From: a virus
IMG/VR virus record: IMGVR_UViG_3300022700_000127
Span: 1-34,948 of that record
Reading direction: 5' to 3' (one strand)
DNA: 34,948 bases
In this document: positions 22,682-33,858 of the stretch, one piece after another
How positions within the stretch are numbered: position 1 is the first letter of the stretch
How the letters are laid out: each line of letters opens with the position of its first letter
Notes under the pieces: generated by a model
Databases searched by the model: none
Seen by the model: only the letters and a program-made list of their open reading frames with translations
Told to the model about the DNA's origin: nothing
Program-made: the position numbers and the translations under genes

Positions 22682-24175
22682 GTGAACGATAAACTAACAA
22701 AAGAGCAAAAAAATGCATTAAAAATCGAAATTCGAAGGGAATTATTTAGGAAATCATTCTTTGAATTTGTGAAGTGGGCAGCTAAACTATTAGAACCAAA
22801 TACTCCTTGGTCTTGGACTAAGTATCACGAGTATCTTTGTGATGTATTACAAGCAGAAACAATTCGAATTAAAGAAGGTAGAGAAAGAGATAAGCATCTT
22901 ATCATTAATGTACCCTTTAGAAGTGGTAAGAGCTTAATTACTTCAGTATGTTATCCAATATGGTCTTGGATTATAAATCCTACAATGGGATTTATTAATC
23001 TGTCTTATAGTGACAATCTGTCAACAACCCATTCCAATAAAGTATTTGCAATAATAAATAACCCCAAATTTCAAGAACTTTTTAATTGGCAGTTTGATGA
23101 TCAACAAAGGTCAAAGACCGATTTTAAATTAAAAAATGGTGGTGAAAGACAATCAGGTGGTGTAACAGGAACAGTTTTAGGTAAGGGTGCTGATGTAATT
23201 GTAATTGATGATGGTAATAATACACGTAGATTATCAGAGGTAGAGAGAAATAATACTATAGAGGCATGGAGAGATACAATTTCAACAAGACTGAATAACC
23301 CCAAAACAGGACTGTTTATTAACATTCAACAAAGACTCCATCATCAAGACCTTACTGGTTATTTATTGGAAAATGAACCAGATAATTGGCATCACATTTG
23401 TTTACCTGCAACTGTTGATGATAATGTATCACCAAAAGAATTAGTTGATATATATGACAGTGATGGTTATCTATGGCAAGATAGGTTTTCAAAAAAGGTT
23501 CTAAATAATTATTTGACAGTACTTGGAACAACAGGATATAATAATCAGCTTCAGCAAAAAGCAATTGCAGATGAGGGTAATATAATTAAAAGGGATTGGA
23601 TACCAATTATATCATATGAAGAGTTTAAACAATTATTGGATGCTGGTGTAAATTCACTAACAAAAAAAGAAAGAAAGCATACAGTAAAATGGGAAATGTT
23701 TATTGACAGTGCTTATACTTCTAAACAATCCAATGACCCATCTGCTGTATTAGTTGCAACTAAATTTAATGATAATTTATATGTTAGAAAAGCATTTAGA
23801 CAATGGCTTGAATTTCCTGAACTAATAAAAAAGATAAAACAAATACACAGTCTATATTGCAGTAATTCATCAAGAGTATTTATTGAAGCTAAAGCAAGTG
23901 GATTGGACATTATTAATTCACTTAAAGGTAATTCTAAATTAAATGTAGTAAAACTGCCAACACCTATTGATGATAAAGAAACAAGATTAAATTCAGTATC
24001 ACCATATATAGAAGCAGGTAGATTTATTTTAATTGAAGACCCATCTAATGATATGGTTATAGATGAAATGTCAATGTTTCCTAATGCAAAGCATGATGAT
24101 ATAATGGATGTTTCAGTATATGCTCTTCAAAAATATATAGCTAAAGCATCGAACTTTAATTATGCGTTAACATAA
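22682..24175 (+). CDS. terL: Terminase large subunit
   Basis: 497 residues, the ATP-driven packaging motor and nuclease. Walker A is P78-FRSGKS-84 and Walker B about 170-177 (ADVIVIDD). The C-terminal nuclease has a first acidic motif at about D342 (MFIDSAYTSK), a second around 398 (VFIEAKASG) and a third near 470 (AKHDDIMD). All are in the order expected for the RNase H-like fold. Start codon is GTG; the first in-frame ATG lies about 10 codons later. It sits with terS, but the portal is 10 kb away on the circle, which is unusual. It is followed after 33 bp by the tail chaperone. Confidence 0.93.
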   Translation: MNDKLTKEQKNALKIEIRRELFRKSFFEFVKWAAKLLEPNTPWSWTKYHEYLCDVLQAETIRIKEGRERDKHLIINVPFRSGKSLITSVCYPIWSWIINPTMGFINLSYSDNLSTTHSNKVFAIINNPKFQELFNWQFDDQQRSKTDFKLKNGGERQSGGVTGTVLGKGADVIVIDDGNNTRRLSEVERNNTIEAWRDTISTRLNNPKTGLFINIQQRLHHQDLTGYLLENEPDNWHHICLPATVDDNVSPKELVDIYDSDGYLWQDRFSKKVLNNYLTVLGTTGYNNQLQQKAIADEGNIIKRDWIPIISYEEFKQLLDAGVNSLTKKERKHTVKWEMFIDSAYTSKQSNDPSAVLVATKFNDNLYVRKAFRQWLEFPELIKKIKQIHSLYCSNSSRVFIEAKASGLDIINSLKGNSKLNVVKLPTPIDDKETRLNSVSPYIEAGRFILIEDPSNDMVIDEMSMFPNAKHDDIMDVSVYALQKYIAKASNFNYALT

Positions 24176-24208: not shown

Positions 24209-25024
24209 ATGAAGACAATAGAATTTAAAGGAGAAAAATATAAAGTCCCTACAAGTTGGAGTGAAATTACTCTTGAAAAACAAATACAGGTATCAAATGA
24301 TCAAACTGAATTTAAGAATGATATAACAAAAAAATTATCTCTTATATCTGCATATGCAGAAATACCTATTGATATAATAAAACATTCAACACCAGCAGAG
24401 GCTGGTAAGTTATTTCAGCATATGAAGTTTTTAAAAAATGATATACCTGACAAGCAAATTGCTGAATTTACATTTAAAGGAGATAAGTATTATGTAGCTC
24501 AGAATTTACTGGATAGTGAATTTCAGGATTATTTATCAATGGAGATTGCAATACAGAATAATGAGGGTAAAATATATAATGCACTACCACAAATGATTGC
24601 TGTACTTTGTAAAAAACAAAAGGAAGATGGTGAGTTGGAAACCCTTGATGATTATGATGTCAATGAAAGAGCAGAGATGTTTAAACAACTTCCAATCTCA
24701 ATAGCTAATGGTTTAGCGGTTTTTTTTTATCAATCAGAGAAAATCTCCAAAATACGTTCCCTCCTATATTCGAACAAAAACCAGATAATACTGAAGAAGG
24801 CAGAAGAAGTAGAGAATACTTTGAAAAAACAGGGTGGAAAGGGGTTGCTATCTCGCTTGCTAATTGGGATTTTACTAAGTTACATAAGATATATAAAACG
24901 AATTGCGCAGAAGTCCTCGAATTCTACTCAATCAAAATCCTTCACTCACAAATGGAAAATGATTTGCAGGAAATTCGCAATAAAAAACTTAAGCATCAAC
25001 AAAAAGCAAAAAAATAAAAAATGA
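24209..25024 (+). CDS. Tail assembly chaperone with probable -1 frameshift (G/GT-like)
   Basis: The unshifted product is 271 residues. Residues 1-173 read as a conventional helical chaperone (YKVPTSWSEITLEKQIQVS, KKLSLISAYAEIPIDIIK, ending LPISIANGLAVFF). After the T-run at 24720-24728 the frame continues as a very basic tail. The -1 frame gives instead LSIRENLQNTFPPIFEQ, later TGWKGVAISLANWDFTKLHKI and TNCAEVLEFYSIKILHSQ, ending at 25017. The fusion of 269 residues looks much more like a folded protein. Tail chaperones of long-tailed phages commonly use such a shift to make short and extended forms that guide the tape measure. A homopolymer error is the main alternative. TTTTAAATTAAAA precedes the ATG. 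Confidence 0.7.
   Translation: MKTIEFKGEKYKVPTSWSEITLEKQIQVSNDQTEFKNDITKKLSLISAYAEIPIDIIKHSTPAEAGKLFQHMKFLKNDIPDKQIAEFTFKGDKYYVAQNLLDSEFQDYLSMEIAIQNNEGKIYNALPQMIAVLCKKQKEDGELETLDDYDVNERAEMFKQLPISIANGLAVFFYQSEKISKIRSLLYSNKNQIILKKAEEVENTLKKQGGKGLLSRLLIGILLSYIRYIKRIAQKSSNSTQSKSFTHKWKMICRKFAIKNLSINKKQKNKK
24721..24727 (+). other. Candidate -1 slippery heptamer T TTT TTT
   Basis: In the frame of the gene at 24209 the codons are GTT TTT TTT TAT, so T TTT TTT is a perfect X XXY YYZ site inside a nine-T run. Slippage by -1 joins residue 173 to a frame that stays open for 96 codons to the stop at 25015-25017. No obvious downstream pseudoknot was identified by eye. Confidence 0.6.
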
Positions 25025-25113
25025 TTTGGAAATTAAAATTATTATTTATATATTTGAATTGAATTCTGTTATAAGTTCTTTTAAAAGTTTTTTCATTAGT
25101 TTAATTTAATTAT

Positions 25114-25151
25114 AAAAAGGCAGTGGGTAATTTTCCCCTGCCTTTTTTTTT
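25114..25151 (+). terminator. Intrinsic terminator after the tail chaperone
   Basis: AAAAAGGCAGTGGG pairs with CCCCTGCCTTTTT (one bulged base), running into nine T residues. It ends the transcript from the sigma/terminase region; a TCGTTATTA motif follows 12 bp later. The gap from 25025 to 25187 has no gene besides this. Confidence 0.9.
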
Positions 25152-25162
25152 GTTAATTTCTG

Positions 25163-25171
25163 TCGTTATTA
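25163..25171 (+). promoter_or_regulatory. TCGTTATTA motif, candidate late promoter for the tail genes
   Basis: Exact 9-mer followed by TAAAAAGGT, 25 bp before the ATG at 25188 and 12 bp after an intrinsic terminator. With the copy at 2172 it is the clearest case of terminator plus motif. Confidence 0.6.
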
Positions 25172-25187
25172 TAAAAAGGTTATAAAA

Positions 25188-25643
25188 ATGACATTAGATA
25201 GTTTCTTAGAATACTTCAAAAAAATAAGCACATCACATAGAGAGGTAAAGGATTTTTACGTTGGTAGTGATTACAATCAAGCAGAGCAAGTAACTCATAA
25301 ATACCCAATGATTTTTTATGAATTGCCTTATTTTATAAACTACTCCCTTAACCCATCAAGATTAGTAGATGAGGTTCAATTCTCATTTAATGTATTTGTT
25401 TCTAGTAATTGGGATAATATAAATGATGATCATAAAGCAATCTCAATGGCAAAAGAGATTGGTGATGGTATTATCACATATATTAATGAGAAATCAAATA
25501 AATTTATATTTACAAGAGTAGATGCAACATCAGTGAGAGAGTTTACTGATGACAGTGTAGCTGGTATGAGGTATGAGACAACTCTGCAACTACCAAGAGA
25601 GATATGTGAGAGTACAAATTGGGTTGATATATTTAACTTTTAA
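25188..25643 (+). CDS. Tail completion/terminator protein
   Basis: 151 residues, mixed alpha/beta. FLEYFKKISTSHREVKDFYVG, then KYPMIFYELP, VQFSFNVFVSSNW, SMAKEIGDGIITYINE and AGMRYETTLQLPREIC follow the order (helix, strand, strand, helix, strand) of small phage tail-terminator proteins that cap the tail tube or join it to the neck. It is the first gene after a terminator and a candidate late promoter and precedes a neck-like gene and the long tail genes. Family assignment is by fold pattern only. Confidence 0.6.
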   Translation: MTLDSFLEYFKKISTSHREVKDFYVGSDYNQAEQVTHKYPMIFYELPYFINYSLNPSRLVDEVQFSFNVFVSSNWDNINDDHKAISMAKEIGDGIITYINEKSNKFIFTRVDATSVREFTDDSVAGMRYETTLQLPREICESTNWVDIFNF

Positions 25644-25669: not shown

Positions 25670-26134
25670 ATGGCATTAACAAAGGACATAAAAGATGAGT
25701 TGCAATTGCTACTGAAGGATTTAATTCCACAGTTAAATAAACTTACAATTAGGTATATGACTCAAAATGGCATTGAGAAGGGTTCTAATTTAACTAAATC
25801 AGTTGAGTATGACCTTGAGGATAGTGGAATTCAACTTGTAGCAAATAACTATTGGTATTATGCTTCTCAGGGACGTAGAGCAAGGACATCTAAAGTACCA
25901 ATTAAAGCACTTATTGACTATATAAAGAGATATAATATAAGACCAAGGGGTAGTCAGACAATAAATCAATTAGCATTTGCAATACAGACAAGTATATATA
26001 GGCAGGGTATTAACCCTAAAAATTATGCTCAAAAGGTTATAGATGGGGTTGCTGATCTGACACAAGAGACACTTTTAAATGAACTCTCTGAGGACATTGC
26101 AAATGAAATAATAAATAAATTAAAACAAAAATAA
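25670..26134 (+). CDS. Neck/tail completion protein (HK97 gp10-like pattern)
   Basis: 154 residues. An N-terminal helix (IKDELQLLLKDLIPQLNKLTIRYM), a beta-rich middle with NNYWYYASQGRRARTSKVPIKALIDYIKRYNIRP and a C-terminal helix pair (INQLAFAIQTSIYRQGINPKNYAQKVID, LSEDIANEIINKLKQ). The GRRA...K.P...I..YI...I.P signature followed by an L-A-F-A-I-x-x-S-I-Y helix is common in small neck proteins of siphoviruses. It follows the tail-terminator-like gene by 26 bp. A role at the head-tail joint is inferred. Confidence 0.6.
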   Translation: MALTKDIKDELQLLLKDLIPQLNKLTIRYMTQNGIEKGSNLTKSVEYDLEDSGIQLVANNYWYYASQGRRARTSKVPIKALIDYIKRYNIRPRGSQTINQLAFAIQTSIYRQGINPKNYAQKVIDGVADLTQETLLNELSEDIANEIINKLKQK

Positions 26135-29020: not shown

Positions 29021-31015
29021 ATGAGCATTAAGACAAATATAAAAATACAAACTGAAGATGGTAGAAATTTAGATTATACTACTCCTGAAGAGTTAGATAT
29101 AACTCTAAATAGAAAAGCTGATGATAATAATCAACCTGATTCAAGATTTGGTGAATTCTCATATAGTTTTTCTCTACCTAAGACAAGGAATAATAACAAA
29201 ATTTTTAATTATGCCAACACGTTTAATTCACAAAGGAAATTCAAAGTTAATCCCATCAACGTCAATGTATTTAATAACGACACGTTGGTATTATCAGGTT
29301 TGTTGGAACTCGAATCAATCAAAAGAGACAGTTATGATTGCAGGTTTTATTCTAAATTGACAGAACTAGTAGATGCTCTTGAAGATGTTAATCTAAGAGA
29401 CATTGATACAATGCCAATGATTGATGATTTTCAGTATGAACAGACCATAAGAGACCATATAAATGCGGAATATAAAGACAGTGATGAGACATCATATCAA
29501 TTTCCACTTATATTTTATAACACATTCTTCACTCCATATGGTGTTTATGATAATATGACAGACCTTGAAGGGTATGATTTTCCTGATTCTGGTGACAGAC
29601 CACAACAAAATTTCTACTATATTTTAAATAGAACACCTACACTTGATGACAATGAGTTTTATTTTCATCAATTTCCAGTGTGTTTTTATTTAAAATCAGT
29701 TTTAGAAGGTCTATTAGAGTATGCAGGATGGTCATTGTCCGGTTCATTTTGGGATACACCAGAGGCTAAGAAAATAATTATGACATATGCTGGTGAAAAT
29801 GATGTATATGATTCATCTACCCTGTGGAAAAATACTTCAACTGGTGAGTATATTGCTCCAACTGGTGATACATTAACACCACCATCTGGATATGTTGTGG
29901 CAATTAATACCAATGAATTTTTACCTGACATGGAAGCATTGGATTTTTTAAAGTCAATTATCAATATGTTTAATATGTATTTTTTTATTGACATTAATAA
30001 TCGAATTATTTCAATGGAAAATTATGATACTGTATTTGGACACAATGTAGCACCATATGATTTAAATAATAAAATTGATTATGATACCATATCTATATCC
30101 ACAGTTGAAAGTGATAATTTCTCAATAGTGTTTGAAGAGCCAGAAAATAAAAATCATTTAGGTGATAATTATTTCTTTGGTAAAAATGATAATAATGCTC
30201 TTAATTTAGAAAACTATAAGAAAACATCAAATGCTTTTTATGATGGTGTTTATAATAATAAGGTAGACAGTGACAATGAAATTGAAATAAAATTTGCAGC
30301 ACCTAAGATAAAGCGAATGCATATAAGAAATGTTGAGAATTATGATGCAAGTATATTGAACCGGGGTTACAAAACATTGTTCATACCTGATATGTCAGAG
30401 CAAACAAGATATGACAATGGAAATAATTCATTTAATGGTGGAACAGGTGAGACAGTGGTTTATAATGAAGAAGATACTATTAAATTCAAAGGTAAACCAA
30501 TGCTAATGTATTATTATGGCATATCAAATTCTGATTTTGAGCAAACATCTGGTGATGGTAATTCTGGTGATTATTTTTATCTTAATATGGATGGTGTAAA
30601 ACAGAAAATAGGTATAGCCTCACCATTTGCATATAAAGCATATAGAGACGTTATAAACACTCAATTAGAAAAAGGGTCATCTGGTAGCACTGCTTCAATG
30701 TACGGCTCTTATTTGCAAACTATTTATCTTATGATGGGTAGTAGTTATTCCAATCCACCACGATATAGTTTAACATTTGGAGAAAGTTATTCAATGGTAG
30801 ATACTCTATTTACAAGATTTTATCAAAATAGAATTAACAGGTATAAAAATTCAGAGGTGATTGAAGGTACAATTAGAATAAATGATACTGATTGGAAAGA
30901 GATGACATTAAATCAACCGTTATTATATAATGGTGAAATATATTCACTCATGTCAATAGACAATTATAGTATAGTAACAGGTAGTGCAAACATAAAAATG
31001 ATAAAACATCTATAA
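29021..31015 (+). CDS. Distal tail/baseplate hub-like protein
   Basis: 664 residues. The N-terminus (ELDITLNRKADDNNQPDSRFGEFSYSFSLPKTRNNNKIF) is the recurring start of a tail protein family in Bacteroidota phages that sits beside the tape measure. It has F.ysfslPkT.nN followed by a beta domain with VFNNDTLVLSGLLELESI. Residues about 215-245 (QFPVCFYLKSVLEGLLEYAGW) and 305-330 (LPDMEALDFLKSIINMFNMYFF) resemble the helix-strand pattern of phage hub proteins. The remaining half is beta-rich with a Gly/Asp-rich insert. It ends 5 bp before the tape measure gene. Dit/Tal-like function is inferred. Confidence 0.65.
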   Translation: MSIKTNIKIQTEDGRNLDYTTPEELDITLNRKADDNNQPDSRFGEFSYSFSLPKTRNNNKIFNYANTFNSQRKFKVNPINVNVFNNDTLVLSGLLELESIKRDSYDCRFYSKLTELVDALEDVNLRDIDTMPMIDDFQYEQTIRDHINAEYKDSDETSYQFPLIFYNTFFTPYGVYDNMTDLEGYDFPDSGDRPQQNFYYILNRTPTLDDNEFYFHQFPVCFYLKSVLEGLLEYAGWSLSGSFWDTPEAKKIIMTYAGENDVYDSSTLWKNTSTGEYIAPTGDTLTPPSGYVVAINTNEFLPDMEALDFLKSIINMFNMYFFIDINNRIISMENYDTVFGHNVAPYDLNNKIDYDTISISTVESDNFSIVFEEPENKNHLGDNYFFGKNDNNALNLENYKKTSNAFYDGVYNNKVDSDNEIEIKFAAPKIKRMHIRNVENYDASILNRGYKTLFIPDMSEQTRYDNGNNSFNGGTGETVVYNEEDTIKFKGKPMLMYYYGISNSDFEQTSGDGNSGDYFYLNMDGVKQKIGIASPFAYKAYRDVINTQLEKGSSGSTASMYGSYLQTIYLMMGSSYSNPPRYSLTFGESYSMVDTLFTRFYQNRINRYKNSEVIEGTIRINDTDWKEMTLNQPLLYNGEIYSLMSIDNYSIVTGSANIKMIKHL

Positions 31016-31020
31016 TACAT

Positions 31021-33858
31021 ATGGCTAAAAGAAATGTAGCATTTGATTTAGACTTTAATGTCCAAGGTCAAAAAAGTATTGGTCAATTGGAAAATACTAT
31101 TGAGCAGATTAATGAAGAGATTAAAAATGTTGATACTAATTCAGATGCGTTTAAACAATTATCTTCTCAAGCACAACAGGCTAATTCTAAATTAAAAACC
31201 ATAGATCAATCTATGGAAGGTGTAACTTCCACAGAAAAAGCGGAAGGAGTTGTTAGACTTGGAGAAGGATTAGCAGGTGCTTTCGAAGCTGCAGCAGGAG
31301 CATCTTTGCTGTTTGGTGAACAAACATCAGAAGAACTTGAAAAGGTAATTCAACAAGTAGGTGGATTAGTAGCTGCTATGGATGGTATTCGTAGAGTAAC
31401 AGAAGCTCTAAGTGCTGAAAATTTAAGATTTGTAAAGGCAGCAGTAGCTGGTTTTAAAAGGTCGGCTGTTGCAGCTAAATTCTTTGGTAATGCTACTCGT
31501 GCTGCAGTTACAGCGACAGGACTTGGTATTATAATAACACTCATTGGATTGATCATTGCCAATTGGGATAAATTAACCTCATTTGTCAAAGACAATATGG
31601 AGAGCATTAAAAAATATATAATGTTTGCTTTACCACCGTTGTATGTAATAATTGAAGTAGTTGAAGCAATTCAAGAGAAGTTTGGTTCACTTGGTAATTT
31701 AGTTAAAGGTGTTGGTGCTGCTATTAAGCAAGCATTTACATTTGATGGTAGTGGGTTAGAAGGTATTAATAATGCATTTGATGAAACAATTGAAAAGCAA
31801 AAGGAAATTAATAGACTTGAAGAGGAAAGAAATGAACTTGCTCAAGAAAGAGAGCAATTAGAGAATAATGGTCTTAGGATTATTAAAGCTCAAGAAGATA
31901 CTGAGAAAGAAGTTCTTAATGTTAGAGAGCAAATGCTTATTGATCAAAAAGAGAATCTTCAACAATTGAAATTACAGAGGGATTTAACTGAGGATGAGAA
32001 AGAAGAACTTAGAGATGTTAAAGTAGAACTTGAAATAATTAGAATAAAGAGAAATCAAATAAATGAAGAGGAAGAGGAAGCTGCTGAAAAACGTAGAAAG
32101 GAAAGAAGAGAAGAAAGACAAGCACAAAGAGAAGCAGCACAAAAAAGAAGGGAAGAATTATTAAATGAGATTGAACTTCTTCAGAAGCAAAATGAAATAG
32201 AGAGTGATAGTTTAGAATTTCGTAGAAGATTATTAGAAATTGAAAGAGCAAAAACTGAACTGGCAAAGGAAGACATTCAATTACAATTCGATTATCTAAA
32301 AACATCTGAGAACATTGATGATGTTATGCGTGATGTTATTGACAATAGTGATGTTATTAACAATATAAATGAGAAGAGAAACGAAATTGAAAATGATTAT
32401 TTGCTCTCACAAAAAGAAAAAGATAGATTACTCGATGAGCTTGAAGCAAAAGAAACTAATTATCTTAACGAAGTAATGGGTAAACTTCAAGATATAGGGG
32501 GGGAACTTAATGAAGAAGAAAGACAAAGATTGGTAAATCTTCAACGTCAAAGAGAAGAATTAAAACTTGAAGAAGAAAGGCTTGAACTTACTAAAAATAA
32601 TAATCAAGATAGAATTGATGGATTAAGAGATGAGCAAGAAGAAATTCAGAAAAGAATTGATGCTCAAGATGATTCTCTGGAAGGTCAAAAAAGAGCAGCA
32701 GAATTAACTGAGGAAAAACAAAAATTAGAAGGTGATATAATTAATCTTCAAAAAGATAATGCTCAAATTGAAAGAGATAATGCTGAAATTCAAAAAGATA
32801 AAAATGATTTAAGAGAGGATGAAAAAGAAATTATTGCTGAAATAATAGCTGAACAGAAAAAATCAGGTGATCAGGCAGAAGATAATAGGGATTCTACAGT
32901 TAAATTTATTGAAGATGTGTTGGAATTTGCTAAAGTTGGTGCAGATGCTATTGGTAATATAGGTGAATTAAGTGCTGCTTTAAATCAAAGGCAAATTCAA
33001 CAAATAGAAGATCAAATTATTGATGCAAGAACAGAACTTGAAGAATTTTATGATTATCAGGAAGAGAGAGAAGCTGAACTGCAAGAGCAAAAAGAAGAGA
33101 ATAAAAAGAAAGAGGAAGAACTTGTTGAGTTACTTAGAGATGCTGAAGGTGAGAGATATGACCAAATTAAAGAGCAATTAGCTGGTGTAAGAGAAGCTGA
33201 ACAATCAAGAGCAGACCAGCAAGCAGTATTAGACCAGCAACAAGCAGAAAGAGAACATAAATTAGCACTCTTGGAATGGAAAAGAGAAAAGAAATCATTG
33301 GAAGCTGAAAAAGAAATGGCTGCATATAGAAAAGCACAGGCAGCTATTGATGCAACCATTCAAACAACTCTTGCTGTTATTCAAGCATTGCCAAACATTC
33401 CACTTTCAATTGCTATTGGTGTGATGGGAGCTGCTGGTGTAGCTTCAATTTTAGCACAACCACTTCCATCTACTAAAATGCCACCTAAACCTGAATCACC
33501 AGAAGCAATTGATGCTGGTGGTGATGGTAGAAGAAGATATGCAGAGGGTGGTTATCTTGATGGTAAATCACACAGTCAGGGTGGTATTCCTATTGAAGCA
33601 GAAGGTGGTGAATATATTGTAAATAGGGATTCTACTTCAAAGTATTATCCAATTCTTGAGGCAATAAATGCAATGAAGTTTCAACAAGGTGGTATGGTAT
33701 CGCAAACAACACCTCAAATTGAGCAAACTGAAGGTGACATTATAAATTATGACAGACTTGCTCAGGCAATGGCAAATCAACCTATTATGGCATCTTGGAC
33801 TGAAGGTGAAAATGTAGGTAGAAGACTTAAATTTACTGAAAATAGAAGTAGCATATAA
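31021..33858 (+). CDS. Tail tape measure protein
   Basis: 945 residues. It sets tail length and probably assists DNA passage. An N-terminal helical part contains a hydrophobic hairpin (about 160-216, ATGLGIIITLIGLIIANW and FALPPLYVIIEVVEAI). Long Lys/Glu/Gln coiled coils cover about 250-760 (RLEEERNELAQEREQLEN, QKRIDAQDDSLEGQKRAAEL). A second hydrophobic segment lies at about 785-818. The C-terminus (AEGGYLDGKSHSQGGIPIEA, EGGEYIVNRDS) is a hallmark of tape measures in this host group. At about 1.5 angstroms per residue, a rule known for tape measures, the tail would be near 140 nm. No muralytic domain is visible. Absence of a tail-sheath gene favours a siphovirus. Confidence 0.88.
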   Translation: MAKRNVAFDLDFNVQGQKSIGQLENTIEQINEEIKNVDTNSDAFKQLSSQAQQANSKLKTIDQSMEGVTSTEKAEGVVRLGEGLAGAFEAAAGASLLFGEQTSEELEKVIQQVGGLVAAMDGIRRVTEALSAENLRFVKAAVAGFKRSAVAAKFFGNATRAAVTATGLGIIITLIGLIIANWDKLTSFVKDNMESIKKYIMFALPPLYVIIEVVEAIQEKFGSLGNLVKGVGAAIKQAFTFDGSGLEGINNAFDETIEKQKEINRLEEERNELAQEREQLENNGLRIIKAQEDTEKEVLNVREQMLIDQKENLQQLKLQRDLTEDEKEELRDVKVELEIIRIKRNQINEEEEEAAEKRRKERREERQAQREAAQKRREELLNEIELLQKQNEIESDSLEFRRRLLEIERAKTELAKEDIQLQFDYLKTSENIDDVMRDVIDNSDVINNINEKRNEIENDYLLSQKEKDRLLDELEAKETNYLNEVMGKLQDIGGELNEEERQRLVNLQRQREELKLEEERLELTKNNNQDRIDGLRDEQEEIQKRIDAQDDSLEGQKRAAELTEEKQKLEGDIINLQKDNAQIERDNAEIQKDKNDLREDEKEIIAEIIAEQKKSGDQAEDNRDSTVKFIEDVLEFAKVGADAIGNIGELSAALNQRQIQQIEDQIIDARTELEEFYDYQEEREAELQEQKEENKKKEEELVELLRDAEGERYDQIKEQLAGVREAEQSRADQQAVLDQQQAEREHKLALLEWKREKKSLEAEKEMAAYRKAQAAIDATIQTTLAVIQALPNIPLSIAIGVMGAAGVASILAQPLPSTKMPPKPESPEAIDAGGDGRRRYAEGGYLDGKSHSQGGIPIEAEGGEYIVNRDSTSKYYPILEAINAMKFQQGGMVSQTTPQIEQTEGDIINYDRLAQAMANQPIMASWTEGENVGRRLKFTENRSSI

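Follow-up and report, generated by a model that had tools for sequence, protein, structure and literature searches.

A putative tail-chaperone gene with two overlapping, apparently selected endings, probably produced by slippage on a run of T in a phage family

Introduction

Phage lambda makes two proteins, gpG and gpGT, in a ratio of about 30:1 (PMC5009743). The two share an N-terminal domain, the C-terminal domain is present in the long form alone, and the long form is a low-level product of a -1 shift at G_GGA_AAG in a gene of the structural region that lies just before the tape measure gene. Phage P2 likewise makes two forms, gpE and gpE+E' (Phage_TAC_7), by a -1 shift at a T-rich site, with E stopping 20 nt past the annotated site. 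Such short forms end soon after the site; among the SEA-PHAGES cases the mean distance from the site to the zero-frame stop is 26 nt (PMC10885494). A change of frame can also arise during transcription, and slippage at A9/T9 has been described for Shigella mxiE, Thermus dnaX and IS elements (PMC1088944, PMC5009743), where the site is an unbroken stretch of A or T, about nine long or longer, RNA structure is unneeded and an inserted base leads to the other frame. In paramyxovirus P/V/W mRNA editing (PMC8204654), G insertions by the viral RNA polymerase give proteins with a shared N-terminal part and overlapping alternative C-terminal endings.

Here we analyze a gene in an IMG/VR virus record of 34,948 bases, the whole of which we call the window. 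The gene resembles lambda G/T in its shared N-terminal domain, in a C-terminal domain confined to the long form, in its place in the structural region and, presumably, in a low level of -1 product. It differs in having a homopolymer of T9-T11 at the site, in showing no detectable sequence relation to the lambda gene, and in following the terminase gene rather than preceding the tape measure gene. Unlike the short forms of lambda and P2, its short form ends in a separate tail that is 22-88 codons long in relatives and longest in the window (98 codons) among the matches listed, which places the zero-frame stop 66-294 nt past the site. The mxiE, dnaX and IS cases lie outside phage tail genes, and dual coding of both endings does not feature in those descriptions as we read them. 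The likeness to P/V/W editing would hold if polymerase slippage is the right reading, and the genes and hosts are unrelated. Genes gp38 + gp39 of phage P12024S and gp40 + gp41 of P12024L (Inhavirus) belong to the same family and have the same T9 site, with a zero-frame tail of just 25 codons compared to 98 in the window. Tail-gene frameshifts and A9/T9 slippage are already known; what this locus adds is a long zero-frame tail and apparent selection on both frames.

Results

A run of nine Ts between two open frames

Around the site the zero frame reads GTT TTT TTT TAT (24719-24730, codons 171-174 of the ORF). The heptamer T TTT TTT at 24721-24727, correctly picked out by the initial annotation, sits in frame within a longer homopolymer of nine Ts (T9, 24720-24728). 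Past the site, 96 codons can be read in the -1 frame before a stop at 25015-25017 and 98 in the zero frame before a stop at 25022-25024, and ORF reading confirmed both lengths as initially annotated. The features of the locus, with E values from family profiles built without the window where held-out profiles are named, are as follows:

22682..24175, + strand: terminase large subunit, directly upstream, a conserved neighbour (phrog_38, E 7e-85)
24209..25024, + strand: zero-frame ORF of 271 aa, the short form (N-terminal domain plus zero-frame tail); N domain against held-out family profile, E 2e-17
24209..24727, + strand: shared N-terminal domain, 173 codons, phrog_32199-like in relatives (pLDDT mostly >90 in the model of relative L022)
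24720..24728, + strand: T9 run, the putative slippage site; an unbroken 9-11 T in every frame-shifted relative among the matches listed
24727..25017, + strand: -1-frame tail, 96 aa plus stop, the predicted C-terminal domain of the long form; held-out family profile, E 5e-11
24728..25024, + strand: zero-frame tail, 98 aa plus stop, the short form's own ending, overprinted on the -1 tail
25188..25643, + strand: gene at the place held by phrog_30964 in relatives, assigned by position only
25670..26134, + strand: neck or tail-completion-like gene, phrog_29822 (E 2e-5); the same family follows in relatives
31021..33858, + strand: probable tape measure gene (phrog_339, E 0.003), encoding a long coiled-coil-like protein

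The window's -1 frame has 96 codons, and no start codon occurs among them until codon 75. The -1 domain therefore could not be made as a separate gene, and we rejected a separate start for this ORF. In 9 of 83 clusters among the matches listed, the -1 frame has no start codon at all.

A 170-base gap (25018-25187) separates the -1 stop from the next gene, and it contains a second T9 run (25143-25151) 3' of an inverted repeat, AAGGCAGTGGG...CCCCTGCCTT, that resembles a terminator. In many relatives, unlike in the window, the next gene starts at or adjoining the -1 stop codon.

The protein of 25188..25643 has no PHROG match. Four genes, two at neck or completion positions and two large ones, lie between the frameshift gene and the probable tape measure gene. 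The order of terminase, frameshift gene, phrog_30964, phrog_29822 and large tail genes is kept where tested, and the terminase lies directly upstream in P12024S and, where tested, in IMG/VR relatives as well. By the major-capsid-like protein the nearest isolates are the Nonlabens phages P12024S and P12024L (26% identity), and the window's genes point to a siphophage of Bacteroidota, with host and morphology both judged from gene content.

A gene family that shares the change of frame

The window protein alone, used as a query, returned no close relatives in viral contigs, genome contigs or phages. The family surfaced only once the query was the -1 fusion of P12024S, followed by those of two further loci (L009 and L013). 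Four family scans found at least 556, 128, 569 and 543 relatives, and 80 from each scan entered the analysis. No family copy was found in 84,980 bacterial and archaeal species genomes, a terminase-based search gave no syntenic loci among the five phages viewed, and a match to Vibrio phage 168E36-1 (E 0.7) was set aside as chance, its context being unrelated. We found no description of this gene family in the literature searched.

In P12024S and P12024L the gene comes directly after the terminase, has IPTSQSEITLKQYI near its start and carries T9 in the same register as the window; past the run, 25 codons are open in the zero frame and 81 in the -1 frame. P12024S gp38/gp39 (L007, 23136-23830) and P12024L gp40/gp41 (L008, 23946-24640) are each the two halves of one frameshifted gene, annotated in GenBank as separate hypothetical proteins and split between PHROGs 32199 and 38404.

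More distant sequences were also seen. Flavobacterium phage 6H gp10 (L261, 10352-10927, minus strand) is a candidate remote relative of the N domain (profile E 9e-4) that ends soon after FFY at TTTTTTC, where the -1 frame closes immediately and a longer ORF then follows in that frame. Five single viral proteins of 234-267 aa in BFVD (A0A6J5N0W0, A0A6J5MY57, A0A516L611, A0A516L5A8 and A0A6J7XA66) gave matches, some of them weak, to the model of the N domain as well as to that of the -1 tail, which suggests that distant relatives have the two parts fused in frame.

Among the matches listed, 320 relatives have both halves, and 319 of these carry the C-terminal domain in the -1 frame (165/165, 77/77 and 77/78 loci by set, the latter two sets having been retrieved with patterns away from the slippage site). 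The sole exception among these (L291, 958-985) has an extra T, reading GTT TTT TTT TTA, that fuses the N- and C-terminal parts, and its former zero-frame tail is still open for 88 codons in the other frame; the extra T is either a natural variant or a sequencing error. This conservation supports a programmed change of frame that would make two products with a shared N-terminal part, and the -1 shift of the initial annotation stands to that extent, with the ribosome no longer its sole reading.

Polymerase slippage is favoured over ribosomal frameshifting

Conventional programmed -1 frameshifting by the ribosome, of the lambda G/T and P2 E/E' kind and here at T_TTT_TTT, would account for several features of these sites. 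T_TTT_TTT is in phase in every shifted relative parsed among the matches listed, the direction of the shift is -1, and the length of the run could be ascribed to amino-acid constraints (Val/Leu-Phe-Phe-Tyr in one frame and Phe-Phe-Leu in the other). P2 tail gene E uses T_TTT_TTG, and conservation of the tail-chaperone shift is widespread among long-tailed phages (PMC5009743).

The form of the run speaks against this reading. A ribosomal heptamer T_TTT_TTT requires just 7 T, whereas each of the 318 loci parsed among the matches listed, 270 of them distinct, has an uninterrupted run of 9, 10 or 11 T, in several registers of phase and length, with phases 0, 1 and 2 all represented; one locus outside the script-parsed set (L315) also has T9. 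Wherever the codon before the run was not NTT, the run was lengthened at its opposite end, pairing AAT, AGT, TCT or GAT with TTT TTT TTT and GGT with TTT TTT TTG, among the matches listed. A change of TTT to TTC at the last Phe codon, which in the common register is silent in both frames and keeps the heptamer, occurred in none of the 83 clusters listed, an absence with a probability of 5e-10 from Phe codon usage when clusters are taken as independent (9e-6 for the first 42). Pseudoknot-free folding of about 60 bases on either side of the site revealed no stimulatory RNA structure, with a mean z of about 0 over 42 clusters. Bacteroidia ribosomes ignore Shine-Dalgarno sequences (PMC9976891), which makes a stimulator of that type unlikely.

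These lengths fit what is known of slippage during transcription. In many bacterial genomes, selection against slippage becomes visible at nine A/T (PMC1088944), the slippage literature also names 'Tn, n > 8' (PMC3711429), and slippage at A/T runs consists mostly of single-base insertions (PMC5574713). The third frame at our sites closes after a median of 2 codons. A/T runs are depleted in coding sequence elsewhere; we had considered T-run depletion as a way to separate polymerase from ribosome, and it fails to discriminate since both kinds of run are depleted. That the run never falls below nine Ts, that TTC is never used and that no RNA structure was found together favour slippage by RNA polymerase, which we judge about twice as likely as ribosomal frameshifting; the latter is the foremost rival, and both may contribute.

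Both frames of the overlap appear constrained

When the codons of the -1 tail were redrawn by each locus's own usage, the probability of a zero frame open to its observed length was small (P<0.05) for 55 of the 83 clusters among the matches listed. Combined over these 83 clusters the result has a Fisher p of 1e-69, a value that overstates independence because the clusters are related, and controls within the gene are the stronger argument. Codon usage of the -1 tail had a mean z of -2.8 inside the overlap versus +0.05 past the zero-frame stop, and was lower in the overlap in 71 of 76 clusters listed. The ratio p3/(p1+p2) was lower in the overlap than in the N-terminal part in each of the 15 listed clusters where both vary. 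Mean p3 over 21 of the listed clusters was 0.184 in the N-terminal part, 0.107 in the overlap and 0.135 past it; the clade of L118, with tails of about 39 codons, shows weak third-position constraint in the overlap. Zero-frame residue identity between clusters was 0.304 versus 0.231 by codon redraw (z 15), compared to z 2.5-2.8 for the same virtual frame past the overlap and z 0.3-2.0 for the N-terminal part. At the level of the family, these comparisons support constraint on both frames within the overlap.

For the window we replaced the codons of the -1 tail by synonyms drawn according to its own codon usage, and the zero frame was open for 95 codons in 0.4% of redraws (p=0.004). In the reverse test, with the zero-frame protein fixed, the -1 frame stayed open in 0 of 20,000 draws. 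The initial annotation had called ATC, CTC, TCG and ACG rare codons that are used in the -1 tail, and this held: ATC, CTC, ACG, TCG, GTC and CGC account for 1-6% of the codons for their amino acids elsewhere in the window. Codon-usage z was -4.7 for the -1 tail versus 0.1 in the N-terminal part of the same gene, on a scale that is overdispersed in the window (sd 1.4); the overlap had the lowest z of 457 window segments, with one segment of the gene at 29021-31015 reaching -4.8. Usage was still odd (z -4.5) when an open zero frame was required, which suggests constraint on zero-frame residues beyond the avoidance of stops. The window's zero-frame tail is high in Lys, Ser and Ile and shows no sequence similarity to the zero-frame tails of relatives. 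The case for dual coding from the window alone is moderate and is strengthened by the family, where the signatures support the initial proposal that both products are selected.

The gene at 29021-31015 has its odd codon usage (z -4.8) around codons ~32-160, and a 79-aa ATG ORF in the +1 frame (29121-29360) lies near that part; this could possibly be a second overprinted frame, or an atypical segment.

It might be argued that the phage needs nothing beyond the -1 product and a truncated short form and that the long zero-frame tail is a functionless by-product, a reading that gains from the variation in tail length among clades (22 to 98 codons in the matches listed) and from the window tail being unlike those of its relatives. 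We consider it improbable, because openness, codon usage, third positions and residue conservation all indicate zero-frame selection, and this selection is confined to the overlap. A long zero-frame tail does set the gene apart from lambda, as first noted, but with 22-88 codons in relatives it is not peculiar to the window phage.

That the real gene has ten Ts and one simple frame, misread through sequencing or assembly error, was the objection raised with the initial annotation, and homopolymers are indeed error-prone and L291 is single-framed with an extra T in this register. Yet it is the sole exception among the matches listed: 319 of 320 loci, drawn from many metagenomes and from the two isolate genomes P12024S and P12024L, are shifted in one direction, relatives in this register have T9, and an error would leave the odd codon usage inside the overlap unexplained, so that for the family we regard this reading as already refuted and for the window as very improbable. 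DNA-level phase variation, in which changes of run length would toggle the long form on and off, can point to the homopolymer and to the one-T difference in L291, but it predicts mixed in-frame and out-of-frame states where 319 of the 320 listed loci share one, and is just as improbable.

A probable tail assembly chaperone

Matches to known families were weak: Phage_TAC_7 (best E 0.006, 3/40 members), the phrog_166 'tail protein' (E 2.5e-4, 12/41 members) and the BFVD 'tail assembly chaperone' ctCpR1 (E 0.06, prob 0.94). No fold in the PDB matched the models, and hhalign profile comparison with the P2, 186 and Mu chaperones gave nothing (probability 0.1%). The parts were modelled separately. 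In the L022 model the N domain is confident and the zero-frame tail is helical at low confidence; the window's -1 tail was modelled as helical. The gene does not directly precede the tape measure gene, unlike chaperone genes of the lambda G/T type. Two forms sharing an N domain, encoded in the structural gene region, follow the chaperone design, with which the weak matches agree, and we infer that the gene is a probable tail assembly chaperone. The name given in the initial annotation stands as a probable assignment, for a gene that adjoins the terminase and not the tape measure gene.

Discussion

We propose that this gene yields two proteins with 173 shared residues and different endings. Faithful reading would give the short form, composed of the N domain and the zero-frame tail. 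Miscopying of the nine-T run, most simply by RNA polymerase adding one U, or alternatively ribosomes stepping back one base on T_TTT_TTT, would lead into the -1 frame and so to the long form, composed of the N domain and a helical C-terminal domain. If the pair works like lambda gpG/gpGT and P2 gpE/gpE+E', the short form, in many copies, probably coats the tape measure protein, and the long form, in few copies, probably recruits the tail tube protein; the short form would have its own selected tail, read from bases that also encode the domain of the long form. Judged from sequence comparison, a slippage-made chaperone-like pair with two selected endings is the likely explanation of the locus. 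The fuller proposal, of a widespread chaperone-like family, found in phages related to those of marine Bacteroidota, in which slippage of RNA polymerase on nine or more Ts sets the ratio of the products and the overprinted tail of the short product is functional, is more tentative, and we put it slightly below an even chance.

The family is unannotated, its P12024 members standing as two hypothetical proteins in two PHROGs, and its long proteins are consequently absent from databases. With 270 distinct natural variants of the site among the matches listed, the slippage rule could be tested directly with reporters. If our reading is right, a classic recoding event of tailed phages would be carried out by RNA polymerase instead of the ribosome, and polymerase-based recoding may suit hosts whose ribosomes ignore Shine-Dalgarno sequences. 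It would also mean that the short form of a chaperone can bear a selected tail, with two endings packed into 66-294 bases, and that the chaperone pair of these phages would consist of two proteins whose different endings both work, in place of one cut-short form and one extended form.
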